Part shown: positions 3,025-28,960 of the stretch, piece after piece
Layout of the letters: the number at the start of each line of letters is the position of its first letter
Position numbering within the stretch: position 1 is the stretch's first letter
Source: Alistipes sp.
GTDB taxonomy: Bacteria; Bacteroidota; Bacteroidia; Bacteroidales; Rikenellaceae
Assembly: GCA_017501625.1 (NCBI GenBank)
Contig: JAFVWO010000085.1
Location: forward strand, 1-35,652
Reading direction: 5' to 3'
Length of the DNA stretch: 35,652 nucleotides
Made by a program: the position numbers and the translations under genes
Notes under the pieces: generated by a model
Databases searched by the model: none
What the model saw: only the letters and a program-made list of their open reading frames with translations
Told to the model about the DNA's origin: nothing

Positions 3025-3093
3025 TTAATACATTCTCTTTAGTATAGCGCGGGAGAGGAGAGCGTAATTTTTATAAAATCCTTCCTACCGACA

Positions 3094-3145
3094 AAAAATC
3101 CCGATGATGGGCCGTACATCAGGTACACCCATTGTCGGGATTTTT
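3094..3145 (+). terminator. Intrinsic terminator of the ribosomal alpha operon
   Basis: An 18-nt arm, AAAAATCCCGATGATGGG at 3094-3111, pairs with 3128-3145 using two G-U wobbles. The loop contains the short repeat GTAC. The 3' arm ends in a T run. It lies 70 nt after the rplQ stop. The pairing was checked base by base. Confidence 0.88.
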
Positions 3146-8477: not shown

Positions 8478-8513
8478 AGATGGGGTGTCGGCACAACGCT
8501 CGACACCCCATCT
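8478..8513 (+). terminator. Perfect 13-bp hairpin between lipoprotein and GH20 genes
   Basis: AGATGGGGTGTCG at 8478-8490 pairs perfectly with 8501-8513 around a 10-nt loop. The following bases (TATTAGTTAT) are only weakly T-rich. It lies 16 nt after the lipoprotein stop and 24 nt before the GH20 start, so it could partly terminate or separate the messages. Confidence 0.6.
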
Positions 8514-10629: not shown

Positions 10630-10753
10630 AAGAGGTTGAATAAAAAGTGTATTTTGTCGTTATACTCGCCCTCAAAATGCTCATTTACGCTAAGTAAACT
10701 CCGCTTTTTCGGGCTTCGCATGCCTAAAACTACATCTTTTTATTCAACCTCTT
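10630..10753 (+). repeat. Interspersed palindromic element, copy A (124 bp)
   Basis: Perfect 18-bp terminal inverted repeats, AAGAGGTTGAATAAAAAG at 10630-10647 and its reverse complement at 10736-10753. The interior is close to copy C at 28794-28915 (for example CTCGCCCTCAAAATGCTCAT and CTTTTTCGGGCTTCGCA). It holds no ORF. It lies 14 nt after the GH20 stop and is followed directly by a terminator hairpin. Confidence 0.85.
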
Positions 10754-10754
10754 A

Positions 10755-10800
10755 ACAAAACGGGGATGACAAATTTACTTTTTCGTCATCCCCGTTTTGT
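10755..10800. terminator. Bidirectional terminator between convergent genes
   Basis: ACAAAACGGGGATGAC at 10755-10770 pairs perfectly with 10785-10800 (16 bp, 14-nt loop). The A/T-rich ends give U runs in both directions. It serves the GH20 gene (+) and the lipoprotein ending at 10816 (-). Closely related hairpins recur at 16375 and 28927. Confidence 0.88.
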
Positions 10801-16374: not shown

Positions 16375-16414
16375 TAACAAAACGGGGATGACAAATTTAT
16401 TTTTTGTCACCCCC
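16375..16414 (-). terminator. Terminator of gcvH, recurring hairpin type
   Basis: GGGGATGAC at 16384-16392 pairs with GTCACCCCC at 16406-16414 with one A-C mismatch. On the - strand it is followed by GTTTTGTT. The left flank and loop (TAACAAAACGGGGATGACAA, then TTTATTTTTT) nearly match the hairpin at 10754-10800. Confidence 0.75.
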
Positions 16415-16445: not shown

Positions 16446-16826
16446 TTAGCCGATAAGAGCCTCGTATGCCGCAGCATCCAAAAGGGCATCAACCTCGGCA
16501 GGGTTAGACATCTTAATCTTAACCAACCAACCCTCGCCATAAGGATCCTTGTTGACAAGTGAAGAGTCAGCCTCGACAGCCTCGTTGAACTCGAGAACCT
16601 CGCCACCAACGGGAGAGAAGGCATCAGATACGGTCTTAACAGCCTCGATAGAGCCGAAAACCTCGTTTGCCTCGATGGTCTCACCTACAGTGGGAACGTC
16701 AACGAAAACGATGTCACCAAGCTGTGACTGAGCATAATCGGTAATGCCGATAACGGCAACATCACCCTCTACACGGCACCACTCGTGGTCGTTAGAGTAC
16801 TTCAAATTAGCAGGTACATTAGCCAT
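16446..16826 (-). CDS. gcvH: Glycine cleavage system H protein
   Basis: Lipoyl carrier that shuttles the aminomethyl group between the P, T and L proteins of the glycine cleavage system. 126 residues from the ATG at 16826 ([16 protein letters not shown]). Upstream in-frame codons are non-homologous leader, so this start is preferred. The lipoylation site is Lys64 in [13 protein letters not shown]; the C-terminal [11 protein letters not shown] is typical. The other cleavage-system genes are not in this window. It has its own promoter 65 nt upstream and a terminator 30 nt downstream, so it is probably transcribed alone. Confidence 0.96.
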
Positions 16827-16890
16827 AATTTCGATAGTATTTAAGTTGTTGTTGTTCTTTCGCAAAGCTGTTATTACACTTCCGCAACCA

Positions 16891-16920
16891 CAAATATAAT
16901 CAGTTTTTTGCTCAAAACAA
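16891..16920 (-). promoter_or_regulatory. Promoter of gcvH
   Basis: Read on the - strand: TTG (16918-16920), exactly 19 nt, then TATATTTG (16891-16898). The predicted leader is about 60 nt. No glycine-riboswitch-like structure was recognised in it. Confidence 0.82.
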
Positions 16921-16996
16921 AAAAATAGCAATTTTTTTTGCTCCCATAAGTTATATCGCCCTATGTAATTTTACCTTTGTGAAGCTGCGCTTCTAT

Positions 16997-18893: not shown

Positions 18894-19790
18894 ATGAGCA
18901 GTGTTAAGGAGCGAATTGAGGCGCTATGGGAGCGCCATATAATAGTTAAGGATGCCGCCATAGGCACAACGCTTGTGGGCGCACGTCGCGATGTTGTGGC
19001 CGATGTGCTCTCTATCACCGAGCCTGAGCGCGTGGTGGCGATGTACGAGGCCTCGATAAAGGCCGGAGCTACGATAATTACAACCAACACCTTCCTTTCG
19101 GACCCGCTGATGCTTAAGTCGTGTGGTGTGACGGCAACAACCGACGAGGTTGTGGCGGCGGCTGTTGCTGCGGCACGCCAAGCACGCGAGAAGAGCGAGA
19201 AGGAGGTATTCATCGCAGGCTCTATAGGCCCCTCGACACGCAACATATCGCTTGCCATAGACCTCACGGAGCAGGAGTTGCGTGACTCGTATCGCACGCT
19301 TATCGAGGCCCTCGACCGCGAGGGTGTCGACATCTTCCTCATAGAGAGCATCACCGATGTGCGTAATGCCGAGATTGCTGCGGAGCTATGTCGCGAGATT
19401 GCACCCGCAAGGCCGATAATATTCTCTGCCGTACTCTCAAAGATTGGGGGCTTGCTCATCTCGGGGCGCTCGGTGGAGAAGTATGTCGAGGATGTATCGA
19501 AGTTCGAGCCTTTAGCCATAGGCTTCAACTGCTCGCACGGTGTGAAAAATATTGTCGATAACATCGAGCTGCTTACGCGCTACACCTCGTTGCCTACGTA
19601 TGCCGCACCTTCGGCAGGTCTCCCCGATGCCAAGGGGCGCTATGCCGAGACTGCAAAGAAACATACCGAGACGTTGCGCACGGCTGCCGAGCGTGGCATG
19701 CTAAGCATCGTGGGTGGCTGCTGCGGTACGACAGCGGAGTATACACGCAGCGTAGCACAGATGGCACGCCACTATAAACCACGTAAATAA
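18894..19790 (+). CDS. Stand-alone homocysteine S-methyltransferase domain protein
   Basis: TIM-barrel enzyme of the type that forms the N-terminal module of cobalamin-dependent MetH and the betaine/S-methylmethionine methyltransferases. 298 residues. The three zinc-binding cysteines are present: Cys213 in GFNCSHG and Cys276-Cys277 in GGCCGTT. The early motif is KDAAIGTTL, with NTF at 65-67. No cobalamin- or folate-binding domains follow, so the methyl donor is not revealed. It is tightly coupled (4 nt) to the upstream lipoprotein and 6 nt from the amidohydrolase, implying one transcript. Confidence 0.9.
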   Translation: MSSVKERIEALWERHIIVKDAAIGTTLVGARRDVVADVLSITEPERVVAMYEASIKAGATIITTNTFLSDPLMLKSCGVTATTDEVVAAAVAAARQAREKSEKEVFIAGSIGPSTRNISLAIDLTEQELRDSYRTLIEALDREGVDIFLIESITDVRNAEIAAELCREIAPARPIIFSAVLSKIGGLLISGRSVEKYVEDVSKFEPLAIGFNCSHGVKNIVDNIELLTRYTSLPTYAAPSAGLPDAKGRYAETAKKHTETLRTAAERGMLSIVGGCCGTTAEYTRSVAQMARHYKPRK

Positions 19791-19796
19791 CATGTC

Positions 19797-20903
19797 ATGA
19801 ATAGTATAGAACTACGCCGCGAGTTACATCGCCATCCCGAGCTGTCGTTCGAGGAGCATCGCACGCAGAGAACCATAATGGAGGCTCTTGCTGCCGAGGG
19901 TATCGCTTGTCGTCCTATAGCGGGGACGGGAGTATTGGCTAAGATTGAGGGGGCGCGAGGTAATCATCGTCGCGCTGTGGTGCTTCGTGCCGATATTGAT
20001 GCCCTGCCCGTTACGGAGCAGAATGATGTGTCGTTTCGCTCGGAGAATGAGGGTGTTATGCATGCCTGCGGCCACGATATGCACGCGGCCATGCTCTTTG
20101 GAGTGTTGCAGGCGCTGAGCCGTGAGCGTGACTTCGAGGGTACGCTCTTAGGTATCTTCCAGCCCGGCGAGGAACTTAACCCCGGGGGTGCTTCGTTGGT
20201 ACTCAAGGAGCGACCCTTCGAGGGGTATGACGTAGCAGCAGTTGTAGGTCAACATGTAGATGCGCGTTTGGAGGTTGGAGAAATAGGCATTTGTCCCGGA
20301 AAGTTTATGGCCTCGAACGATGAGTTGCGCTTCTATGTGCGTGGTCGTGGTGGCCATGCGGCACGTCGTGGCGACATTAAGGATACGGTGACGGCCATGT
20401 GTGACCTCGTTGTACGTACCACAGCCCTCAATACGCCTGATGCTGTGGTGTCGGTGGGGCGTGTTATTGCCGAGGGTGCTACGAATGTGATTCCCGATAT
20501 GGTGTCGGCCGAGGGCACGATGCGCACGTTTGATGCTGAGGAGAGGGAGCGCATATATGCACTCCTGCGTGCCAATGCTAAGGCTGTCGAAGAGAGGTAT
20601 GAGGTTGAGGTCGAGGTCGACATAAACCGAGGCTATCCCTCTGTTGTCAATGATGTCATGCTCGCGTATGAGGCTATGATTGTTGCTGCGGACGAGGGTG
20701 TTGCGGTGCGCGAGCTTCAGCGCATACCTATGGCCGAGGATTTCGGCTATTATACGGAGTGTTACCCATCGCTCTTCTATCGCTTGGGTGTAGGTGCTGC
20801 GGCGGGAGGGTCGCATACATCGACATTTCTGCCTGACGAGGATGCTATAGCCGTTGGCGAGAGAGTGATGCGTAGGATGGCGCTCCACATACTTAATAAA
20901 TAA
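19797..20903 (+). CDS. M20-family amidohydrolase (N-acyl-amino-acid / hippurate type)
   Basis: Metal-dependent hydrolase of N-acylated amino acids or short peptides. 368 residues, no signal peptide, so cytoplasmic. Motifs: RRELHRHPELSFEE at 7-20; metal ligands Cys91 and His93 in HACGHDMHAAM; FQPGEE with Glu125/Glu126; His153 in VGQHV; and the C-terminal GGSHTSTF histidine. The Cys-containing motif points to the M20D subgroup (amidohydrolase/hippuricase) rather than DapE. It ends the three-gene cluster; its TAA (20901-20903) overlaps the first bases of repeat element copy B. Confidence 0.9.
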   Translation: MNSIELRRELHRHPELSFEEHRTQRTIMEALAAEGIACRPIAGTGVLAKIEGARGNHRRAVVLRADIDALPVTEQNDVSFRSENEGVMHACGHDMHAAMLFGVLQALSRERDFEGTLLGIFQPGEELNPGGASLVLKERPFEGYDVAAVVGQHVDARLEVGEIGICPGKFMASNDELRFYVRGRGGHAARRGDIKDTVTAMCDLVVRTTALNTPDAVVSVGRVIAEGATNVIPDMVSAEGTMRTFDAEERERIYALLRANAKAVEERYEVEVEVDINRGYPSVVNDVMLAYEAMIVAADEGVAVRELQRIPMAEDFGYYTECYPSLFYRLGVGAAAGGSHTSTFLPDEDAIAVGERVMRRMALHILNK

Positions 20904-21208
20904 GAGGTTGAATAAAAAGTGTATTTCTGCGTTCTTTGTTGTGAAAAGGTAGCATCTACTGCCGCTAACAAATTATCTCGGCAATGGGCAGTACGGTTTA
21001 GTACAGCCCATCGCCTCGAAATTTGCCGAGCGTTGCATCTACTACCTTTTGACAACAAATTATGGGAGTGAAAAGGCATCATCTGCTGCCGCTAACGAAT
21101 TTTCACGGCAATGGACAGTACGGTTTAGTATAGCCCATCGCCTCGAAATTTGCCGAGCGTGAGCAGTGAAAAGGTACTTAAGCCTAAATCTACATCTTTT
21201 TATTCAAC
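20902..21208 (+). repeat. Interspersed palindromic element, copy B (about 307 bp, enlarged interior)
   Basis: The left end, AAGAGGTTGAATAAAAAG (20902-20919), is identical to copy A. The right end, CTTTTTATTCAAC (21196-21208), is followed by a diverged ATCATGG. About 20 further bases next to the right end (CCTAAATCTACAT) match copies A and C, but the interior is different and contains two tandem structured units. It fills most of the 20904-21227 gap before rnr. Confidence 0.82.
20941..21160 (+). repeat. Two structured tandem units inside element copy B
   Basis: Units at 20941-21033 and 21068-21160 are each 93 bp, differ at about 8 positions and are offset by 127 bp. In unit 1, CTCGGCAA pairs with TTGCCGAG, enclosing ATGGGC..GTAC paired with GTAC..GCCCAT around a GGTTTA loop. 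Unit 2 keeps most of this pairing with some changes. Confidence 0.8.
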
Positions 21209-24484: not shown

Positions 24485-24489
24485 ATTAG

Positions 24490-24543
24490 GCGTTAAACGA
24501 ATTATGGGCACATCCTAAGATGTGCCCATAATTCGTTTAACGC
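24490..24543. terminator. 25-bp perfect hairpin between convergent genes
   Basis: Left arm 24490-24514 (GCGTTAAACG...GCACATC) and right arm 24519-24543 are exact reverse complements around a CTAA loop. It begins 6 nt after mqnC and ends 9 nt before the peroxidase stop. There is no clear T run, but the length suggests a strong bidirectional barrier or RNA-stabilising end. Confidence 0.8.
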
Positions 24544-24552
24544 TGTTAGCGA

Positions 24553-28776: not shown

Positions 28777-28793
28777 ATGTGTTATTTATAAGA

Positions 28794-28915
28794 TGAGGCT
28801 GAATAAAAAGTGTATTTTGTCGTTACGCTCGCCCTCAAAATGCTCATTTACGCCAAGTAAACTGCGCTTTTTCGGGCTTCGCAGGCCTAAAACTACATCT
28901 TTTTATTCAACCTCA
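28794..28915 (+). repeat. Interspersed palindromic element, copy C (122 bp)
   Basis: Ends are TGAGGCTGAATAAAAAG (28794-28810) and CTTTTTATTCAACCTCA (28899-28915), inverted repeats with one mismatch. The interior matches copy A at most positions. It lies 18 nt after the glycosyltransferase stop and just before a terminator hairpin. Confidence 0.85.
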
Positions 28916-28926
28916 CTAACAAAAAA

Positions 28927-28960
28927 TGGGGATGAAAAACTTACTTTTTAGTCATCCCCA
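28927..28960. terminator. Terminator hairpin between convergent genes
   Basis: TGGGGATGA (28927-28935) pairs with TCATCCCCA (28952-28960). A-rich and T-rich flanks could support termination both ways. Sequence and loop resemble the hairpins at 10755 and 16375. Confidence 0.75.

Follow-up and report, generated by a model that had tools for sequence, protein, structure and literature searches.

A short mobile hairpin element with a conserved tip at gene 3' ends in an Alistipes sp. genome

INTRODUCTION

Three related copies (A, B and C) lie in a 35,652-nucleotide stretch of the genome of Alistipes sp. (contig JAFVWO010000085.1, hereafter the window). With a probability that we put at about 0.72, they belong to a family of short, non-autonomous mobile elements of the MITE/REP-like kind, each forming a single long hairpin with a conserved tip and a lineage-specific paired stem. 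The family is dispersed, with many recent polymorphic insertions; compensatory changes keep its hairpin, it is enriched at gene 3' ends, and a small hairpin is linked to most copies. The large hairpin element is called F1 here, the small GC-rich hairpin SH, and a second palindromic repeat S2; G and L numbers denote genomes and loci.

The family matters for two reasons. A mobile element brings its own terminator-like hairpin, often to places where relatives have another terminator, and a non-coding tip is kept nearly letter for letter between Bacteroidota and a Pseudomonas group, while the ends drift yet stay paired. With the many polymorphic sites between the own genome (G000) and G443, and with copy-rich genomes in the Pseudomonas group, both the movement and the factor behind it are testable.

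THE THREE COPIES IN THE WINDOW

Terminal inverted repeats, as claimed in the initial annotation, are present on all three copies (Table 1): those of copy A are perfect, each end of copy C has 2 mismatches to the 18-mer, and the right end of copy B diverges after 13 bp. Also as described there, A and C are alike inside, with 5 differing positions in the inner 108 bp (by eye), whereas the 296-bp inner stretch of B is longer and unlike both. Copies A and C start 14 and 16 nt, respectively, after the stop codon of a plus-strand gene, and B starts within the stop codon, so the annotated distance of less than 20 nt holds. The view of a position simply behind a plus-strand gene needs amending for A and C, which lie between convergent genes, so that a gene end faces both ends of the element. 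The neighbours of B, encoding an M20-type amidohydrolase and RNase R, are codirectional. Open reading frames of at least 80 aa (mechanical calls) overlap all three copies and none lies wholly inside any of them, in keeping with the claim that the elements have no ORF. The SH behind A and C is GC-rich and part of the repeated unit.

Table 1. Positions of the elements and hairpins in the window
Feature	Position	Strand	Remarks
Copy A, F1 element	10630..10753	+	124 bp; perfect 18-bp terminal inverted repeat; covariance-model match 150.5 bits; also present in G443
Conserved tip of copy A, AAAATGCTCATTTAC-loop-GTAAACTCCGCTTTTTCG	10674..10711	+	Almost unchanging across the family (alignment and pair counts)
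Small terminator-like hairpin (SH) of copy A	10756..10799	.	Fold -25.5 kcal/mol
Copy B, F1 outer stem with tip replaced by two S2 palindromic units, without SH	20902..21208	+	Between amidohydrolase and RNase R genes
First S2 unit inside copy B	20934..21059	+	Limits by eye
Second, partial palindromic unit inside copy B	21068..21183	+	Limits by eye
Copy C, F1 element, 124 bp	28793..28916	+	Covariance-model match 152.9 bits
SH of copy C	28928..28959	.	GC-rich
Solo SH of the same type, without F1	16384..16414	-	3' end of gene 16446-16931
Plain terminator hairpin at a site where the relative L107 has F1 and SH (allele without the element)	8479..8512	+	

A further palindrome in the window (24486-24547) lies between convergent genes; a plant miRNA model scores both of its strands below the cut-off, and it is probably another terminator palindrome.

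COPY NUMBER AND ARCHITECTURE IN THE OWN GENOME

The own genome (1.62 Mb in 108 contigs, 80% complete) contains 61 matches to the 18-bp end with at most 2 mismatches, mostly pairing into 124-bp elements, against 2 for the reversed pattern, and the number is therefore beyond chance. A search with this end as an inverted pair, as the initial annotation had proposed, thus yields many more copies than the three in the window. By BLAST, 1.14 Mb of non-redundant own DNA gives 29 hits that span at least 70% of the element. Read in one of its two orientations, F1 has a linker and then SH behind it in most copies. Two sub-families prevail in G000: the stem AGAGGYT/ARCCTCT is paired with the hairpin GGGGATGAC, and the stem AGAGAGT/ACTCTCT with the hairpin GGGGCTGAC. 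SH also occurs alone in this genome, once within the window.

Interchangeable interiors had been proposed for the family. Other palindromes do occur inside: copy B has kept the outer arms of F1 and has two S2 units in place of the conserved tip (by eye), L025 has kept the tip and has S2 on the left of its internal loop, and L033, also with its tip, has a third piece on the right of that loop. Both arrangements recur in loci of relatives (L144, L099, L159, L193). Free interchange of interiors is thus not what is seen: F1 is better described by its conserved tip and stem, additional palindromes lying either within the unpaired internal loop or where the tip would be.

Several other arrangements were seen at single loci. 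Behind a gene of L025 resembling infC (by eye), a solo right end of F1 (~3050-3130) is followed by SH with no left half, which is either a remnant or a pre-insertion state. In L390, L398 and L404, a short piece of an F1 end, 5-12 bases long (AAGAGGTTGA, AAGAGAGTGA, AAGAG), follows a solo SH, which suggests that the large hairpin was lost and SH left. Between F1 and SH, the near relatives L404 (~19260-19340) and L312 have a hairpin, TGACCCCAAAAG..CTTTTGGGGTCA, the loop of which is oppositely oriented in the two, as if inverted. The own genome also has a second family of terminator hairpins, with the tip GTAC-loop-GTACTA on very different stems (e.g., L340, L362, L367, L399, L417). Hairpins with this tip and a stem of at least 8 pairs number 23 in 1.14 Mb versus 0 in a reversed control, and the bare motif without a stem 35 versus 27; the tip of the S2 palindrome is a similar GTAC.

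STRUCTURE OF THE HAIRPIN

Each element is one long imperfect hairpin: its outer stem is variable and leads through an internal loop to a tip that hardly changes. RNAalifold gives a single hairpin of 39 pairs, 24 of them with both sides changed, for an alignment of 26 copies, that is, copy A of the window and 25 of 47 representatives (mutually <90% identical, ungapped), the other 22 having large inserts or truncated or odd arms, or being Pseudomonas-type or viral. Paired cells amount to 96.6%, and double-change cells number 123 versus 32.2 (sd 4.4) in shuffled alignments and 16-27 with slid partners, a comparison in which the structure, being derived from the same sequences, is favoured over the slid controls, though hardly to that extent. 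Variation is highest in the outer stem, where both partners have changed in 16 of 17 pairs. There is little variation in the tip, AAAATGCTCATTTAC-loop-GTAAACT[CG]CGCTTTTTCG, where one pair shows a double change from G-C to C-G in 3 copies; for the extraction of tips and flanks, 35 of 214 hits were dropped for want of a clear tip or flanks.

The end stem scores at least 15/18 in 142 of 187 copies, the score being that of the best stem over many offsets, so that low scores (13/18) are near chance, and 23 of 210 hits at locus edges being dropped. The stem ends differ between lineages and the tip does not. Copy A together with its SH has a predicted RNA fold of -61 kcal/mol (z -10.8), and the predicted single-stranded DNA fold of copy A alone has a z of -7.25. 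Rfam 15 has no match at the window elements or at the copies in L105, L149, L184, L206 and L207.

MOBILITY BETWEEN RELATIVES

The family is mobile. The gene pair around copy B is kept in relatives, with a match in 29 of 31 genomes, and 17 loci were viewed, including that of the window. The site is empty in 16/16 relatives viewed; there, no element intervenes, and the next start codon (by eye) overlaps the amidohydrolase stop or lies within ~15 nt of it. For site A, none of the six closest orthologs (66-74% identity) has an element in the stretch viewed after the stop codon, where downstream synteny is mostly lost and the contig of L237 stops ~300 nt further; L107 has a plain terminator hairpin at this site.

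The near relative G443 (Alistipes sp. RGIG6186) has 41 matches. At 10 sites it can be compared with G000: four are shared (L298, L306, L314 and copy A), five have the element in G443 only (L309, L312, L313, L318, L324) and one is rearranged (L296). Copy A is common to both genomes, as two G443 contigs (L302, L305) end in it and are 93-94% identical to the window on either side. The comparison covers 30 copies of G443: 9 with usable pairs, L302 and L305 as the halves of copy A, 5 with short flanks (including L297) and 14 with no usable pair (that of L315 is spurious). Since flank identity at the five polymorphic sites is 84-97%, turnover is fast.

The non-autonomous, MITE/REP-like family that the initial annotation had envisaged is hence supported by dispersed copies, empty sites and polymorphism. 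The opposite case, with only three copies at identical positions in all relatives and no empty sites, is contradicted by the 29 long hits, the 16 empty relatives of site B and the 5 of 10 sites occupied in G443 only. Empty sites, which a comparison of strains had been expected to reveal, were found at site B, and element-free alleles at site A (the plain hairpin of L107) and at the five G443-only sites. The flanking duplications expected with them did not appear in the window's group: among 164 copies, no clear target site duplication was found at the best of 49 boundary offsets. The best offsets gave 14 matches at 3 bases (5.3 expected) and 9 at 4 bases (2.3 expected), and these offsets lie partly within the stem and are inconsistent between lengths.

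GENE 3' ENDS AND TERMINATORS

With both neighbouring genes known, 139 copies fall into 74 convergent, 58 tandem and 7 divergent positions, versus 86, 145 and 61 among 292 intergenic regions of 100-600 bp from the same loci; these counts rest on crude ORF calling, the baseline contains element-bearing regions, 15 of the 139 copies overlap a mechanical ORF, and a few Pseudomonas copies are included. The set is limited to copies of 115-150 bp with at least 13 pairs, without exact duplicates and without 23 copies that lacked flanking ORFs on both sides. Among 107 copies with an upstream gene on the same strand, 78 begin at most 40 nt past the gene end. In tandem pairs, the two orientations number 33 and 25, with no clear bias, and a strand-specific role in RNA therefore finds no support here. 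The impression that all copies point the same way was rejected, as it stems largely from convergent sites, where orientation is meaningless.

The small hairpin is predicted to be terminator-like: five SH stems have predicted energies of -14.9 to -25.5 kcal/mol, and T tracts are present in many, not all, copies (by eye). The large stem itself has no following T tract. Eight sites with F1 and SH can be aligned with an element-free allele. In five of them (window A/L107, L107/window 8479, L112/L026, L318/L405, L072/L132), a plain hairpin of unrelated sequence (-10.7 to -29.4 kcal/mol) takes the place of F1 and SH in the element-free allele; for L318/L405 only the hairpin differs, and the T tract and the downstream sequence are kept. 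In the other three (L309, L312, L324), the allele without the element carries SH, or a hairpin resembling it, together with hairpins from other repeats (by eye). F1 and SH thus often, not always, stand in for the local terminator, and the suggestion of a mobile mRNA 3' end fits as well.

That the element always replaces a terminator was considered and rejected. The occupied allele of L324 retains its plain terminator hairpin beside F1, and a crude scan found a plain hairpin with T tract immediately before 5 of 153 copies, three of them clear (L063, L081, L106). With the three deviating sites, these retained hairpins mean that substitution is not universal, and they favour insertion at some sites at least. 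At the sites compared that carry F1 only (B; L065/L109), the other allele has no hairpin: the L270 allele of site B folds at 0.0, and the rest, with L109, were judged by eye. In L023, F1 and SH stand in place of the S2 palindrome tip (by eye), where L425 has a small hairpin.

DISTRIBUTION AND RELATIVES IN THE PSEUDOMONAS GROUP

A 164-base query matches 17 of 25 genomes of the same genus, including the own genome, and has single weak matches in G026, G034 and G036, which belong to other families. The exact tip is absent from 394 sampled Bacteroidota genomes outside the genus (a sample without congeners). Around G441, a MAG with the title Pseudomonas sp., the tip occurs in 72 of 148 genomes from the same family (G441 included) and in 17 of 398 from the same phylum, 8 of these 17 being in the family set as well; the two groups are taken as Pseudomonadaceae and Pseudomonadota. 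The patchy presence across phyla and the conserved tip point to horizontal spread. Five stretches in IMG/VR have a match. Against plasmid and phage sequences, a window copy has no match; a Pseudomonas copy matches 7 plasmid records (6 Pseudomonas, 1 Halomonas). By far the highest count was seen in G702 (2.0 Mb), one of the 17 genomes from the phylum sample, with 157 exact copies of the tip.

A covariance model (R1) was built from the 26 copies, among which there are no Pseudomonas-titled or viral loci and L091 is an uncultured bacterium of unassigned group. In 20 Pseudomonas-titled or viral loci, preselected for the tip, ends or a BLAST match, R1 has 24 hits: 15 span 1-144 of 144, with E-values of 1e-13 to 1e-6 that are rough owing to short calibration, and 9 are partial. 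Judged by shared sequence and structure over the whole element, the window family and the Pseudomonas-group element count as one family, with outer ends that differ: the Pseudomonas-type ends are CAGGCYGTTGAAAAA, unlike those of the window. Two genomes have ~100 matches each to these ends, and the length from one end to the other is often 140 bp. Exact 4-bp flanking repeats border 7 of 12 Pseudomonas-type copies examined, 6 of them YTAR (raw count).

MOVEMENT OF THE ELEMENT AND COMPETING EXPLANATIONS

A tip that is conserved while paired ends drift suggests that some factor acts in trans and recognises the tip in its folded form. Under the reading that we prefer, the non-autonomous MITE/REP-like element, an enzyme acting in trans would recognise the folded tip and/or the stem and move the element. 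Copies behind genes would survive as promoters are left undisturbed and their own terminator is brought along, and the Alistipes-like genus and the Pseudomonas group would have gained the family by horizontal spread. Copy B would be an insertion of this kind, between genes that are apparently cotranscribed, in which a different palindromic repeat has taken the place of the tip. The tip with its changing ends also counts against this reading, since it is the reverse of an ordinary MITE.

A transposase with matching ends, which the initial annotation had suggested looking for, was not found. Y1_Tnp (PF01797) is found in 0 of 31 congeners, versus 5 of 14 control genomes. DDE_Tnp_1 occurs in 3 of 26 congeners (G014, G015 and G023, with 14, 20 and no F1 matches, respectively), and neither in G000 nor in the copy-rich G001, G004, G011 and G021. 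The 7 DDE_Tnp_1 loci have no F1-like end pair, with one single weak end in L233, and none of the 61 end matches was seen to frame a long, autonomous copy. Because insertion sequences can be lost from MAGs, which are fragmented and incomplete, the absence of an enzyme is weak evidence.

The strongest competitor, which we regard as possible but on balance doubtful, is that an IS5-type transposase moved these elements as its MITEs, as in Pseudomonas; the Alistipes-like genus would have received them, and the enzyme would later have disappeared or be absent from most of the MAGs. It draws on the ends, the frequent 140-bp length and the 4-bp repeats of the Pseudomonas-type copies, on the IS5-like ends of MITEPsy1, which transposes according to PMC3189936, on a loose similarity (by eye) of the window-group ends, GAGGCTGAATAAAAAG, to CAGGCYGTTGAAAAA, and on the DDE_Tnp_1 genes of the copy-rich G014 and G015; set against it are the scarcity of that domain among the congeners and its absence from G000 and the other copy-rich genomes, the DDE_Tnp_1 loci without F1-like end pairs, the lack of a clear target duplication in the window's group, and ends that vary by lineage when the tip does not. 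Movement as single strands by a Y1 (HUH) transposase, as for REP hairpins with their RAYT, would account for the BIME-like mosaics, the position at gene 3' ends and the mismatches that the imperfect hairpins conserve; with no Y1_Tnp in 31 congeners, such an origin is rejected as very improbable.

Hairpins or tips could also be swapped in place by template switching or recombination between palindromes, with no transposase at all. The unrelated plain hairpins in the other allele of five of eight sites suit this idea, as do the T tract kept in L318/L405, the replaced S2 tip of L023 and small hairpin of L425, the third hairpin with its inverted loop in L312/L404, and the F1 arms with S2 tip of copy B. 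However, simple insertion seems to have occurred at site B and at the L065 site, where the other allele shows no hairpin. L324 retains a plain terminator hairpin next to F1 and SH; in L063, L081 and L106 the element is directly behind a plain hairpin with T tract. An exchange would also be mimicked if the old terminator, made redundant by an insertion, decayed afterwards. The retained hairpins lower the odds of this explanation, which we consider unlikely, and equally those of a related one that we hold to be just as improbable: a cross-phylum hairpin family defined by its tip, which would spread by hairpin-for-hairpin exchange at gene ends through a factor reading the folded tip. If true, the latter would amount to a mobile, replaceable mRNA 3' end, with whole terminators or the tips of other palindromes swapped in place. 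Scarcely credible, finally, is that ordinary terminators or 3' UTR structures became alike by convergence without movement. Their strong hairpins at gene 3' ends would agree with it, but near-identical 108-bp cores occur at unrelated loci, sites are empty or polymorphic between near relatives, the tip is common to two phyla and the large stem has no T tract; for the large element, this reading is already refuted.

COMPARISON WITH KNOWN SYSTEMS

Like REP, BIME and REPIN sequences, F1 elements are dispersed intergenic hairpins at gene 3' ends with mosaics of large and small palindromes; unlike them, they measure 124 bp rather than 20-40 bp, and no Y1 transposase corresponding to RAYT occurs in the 31 congeners. 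ERIC/IRU elements of enterobacteria are imperfect palindromes of ~127 bp (RU-1, 127 bp) with internal insertions, intergenic and transcribed, and ERIC makes a TA duplication. By description, F1 is similar in size and in being a palindrome with insertions, and a TA duplication is not seen at F1.

PMC3189936 describes MITEPsy1 of P. syringae as a 100-nt element that was shown to transpose, with IS5-like ends containing GAAAAA, the target CTAG or YTAA, and homologs in P. stutzeri and other genera. Both MITEPsy1 and the F1 family are short (about 100 nt), with terminal inverted repeats and no ORF. The 4-bp CTAG/YTAA duplication is like that of 7 of 12 Pseudomonas-type relatives and unlike the window copies, where none is clear; the window copies also differ in their ends, their linked terminator-like hairpin and the lack of an IS5-type partner in our searches. 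Going by the published description, MITEPsy1 is close in style to the Pseudomonas-type relatives, which have the look of IS5-type MITEs. For P. fluorescens, PMC2718517 describes R0, R2 and R178 as hairpin-forming, several with inverted repeats around a core, R0 and R2 as matching resident insertion sequences, and a convergent ('tail-repeat-tail') bias of the repeats as the 'least worst' place. Hairpins and convergent bias are alike in F1 by description, and no match to a resident insertion sequence was found for F1.

Other candidates were set aside. The F1 ends hold GTTGAAT/ATTCAAC as in integron attC sites, but in inverse arrangement, and these are absent in the GAGGCT or GAGAGT variants (by eye). 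Intrastrand-triplex repeats have, according to the abstract of PMC4666352, a G/C-rich motif. MITEAba12 is described in PMC6382973 with duplications of 9 bp and with resident ISs whose ends are of the GGCTTTGTTGCA type.

A search of the literature by sequence word and topic gave no name for F1, and an earlier description in print may exist. Of the features that mark MITEs, no clear target duplication (in the window's group) and no autonomous partner with matching ends were found; F1 is short, has no ORF, carries terminal inverted repeats, is multicopy and shows insertion polymorphism. In short, F1 is known in kind, as a MITE/REP-like element, and unusual in its conserved tip with drifting paired ends, its linked SH, its frequent occurrence in place of local terminators and its presence in two phyla.
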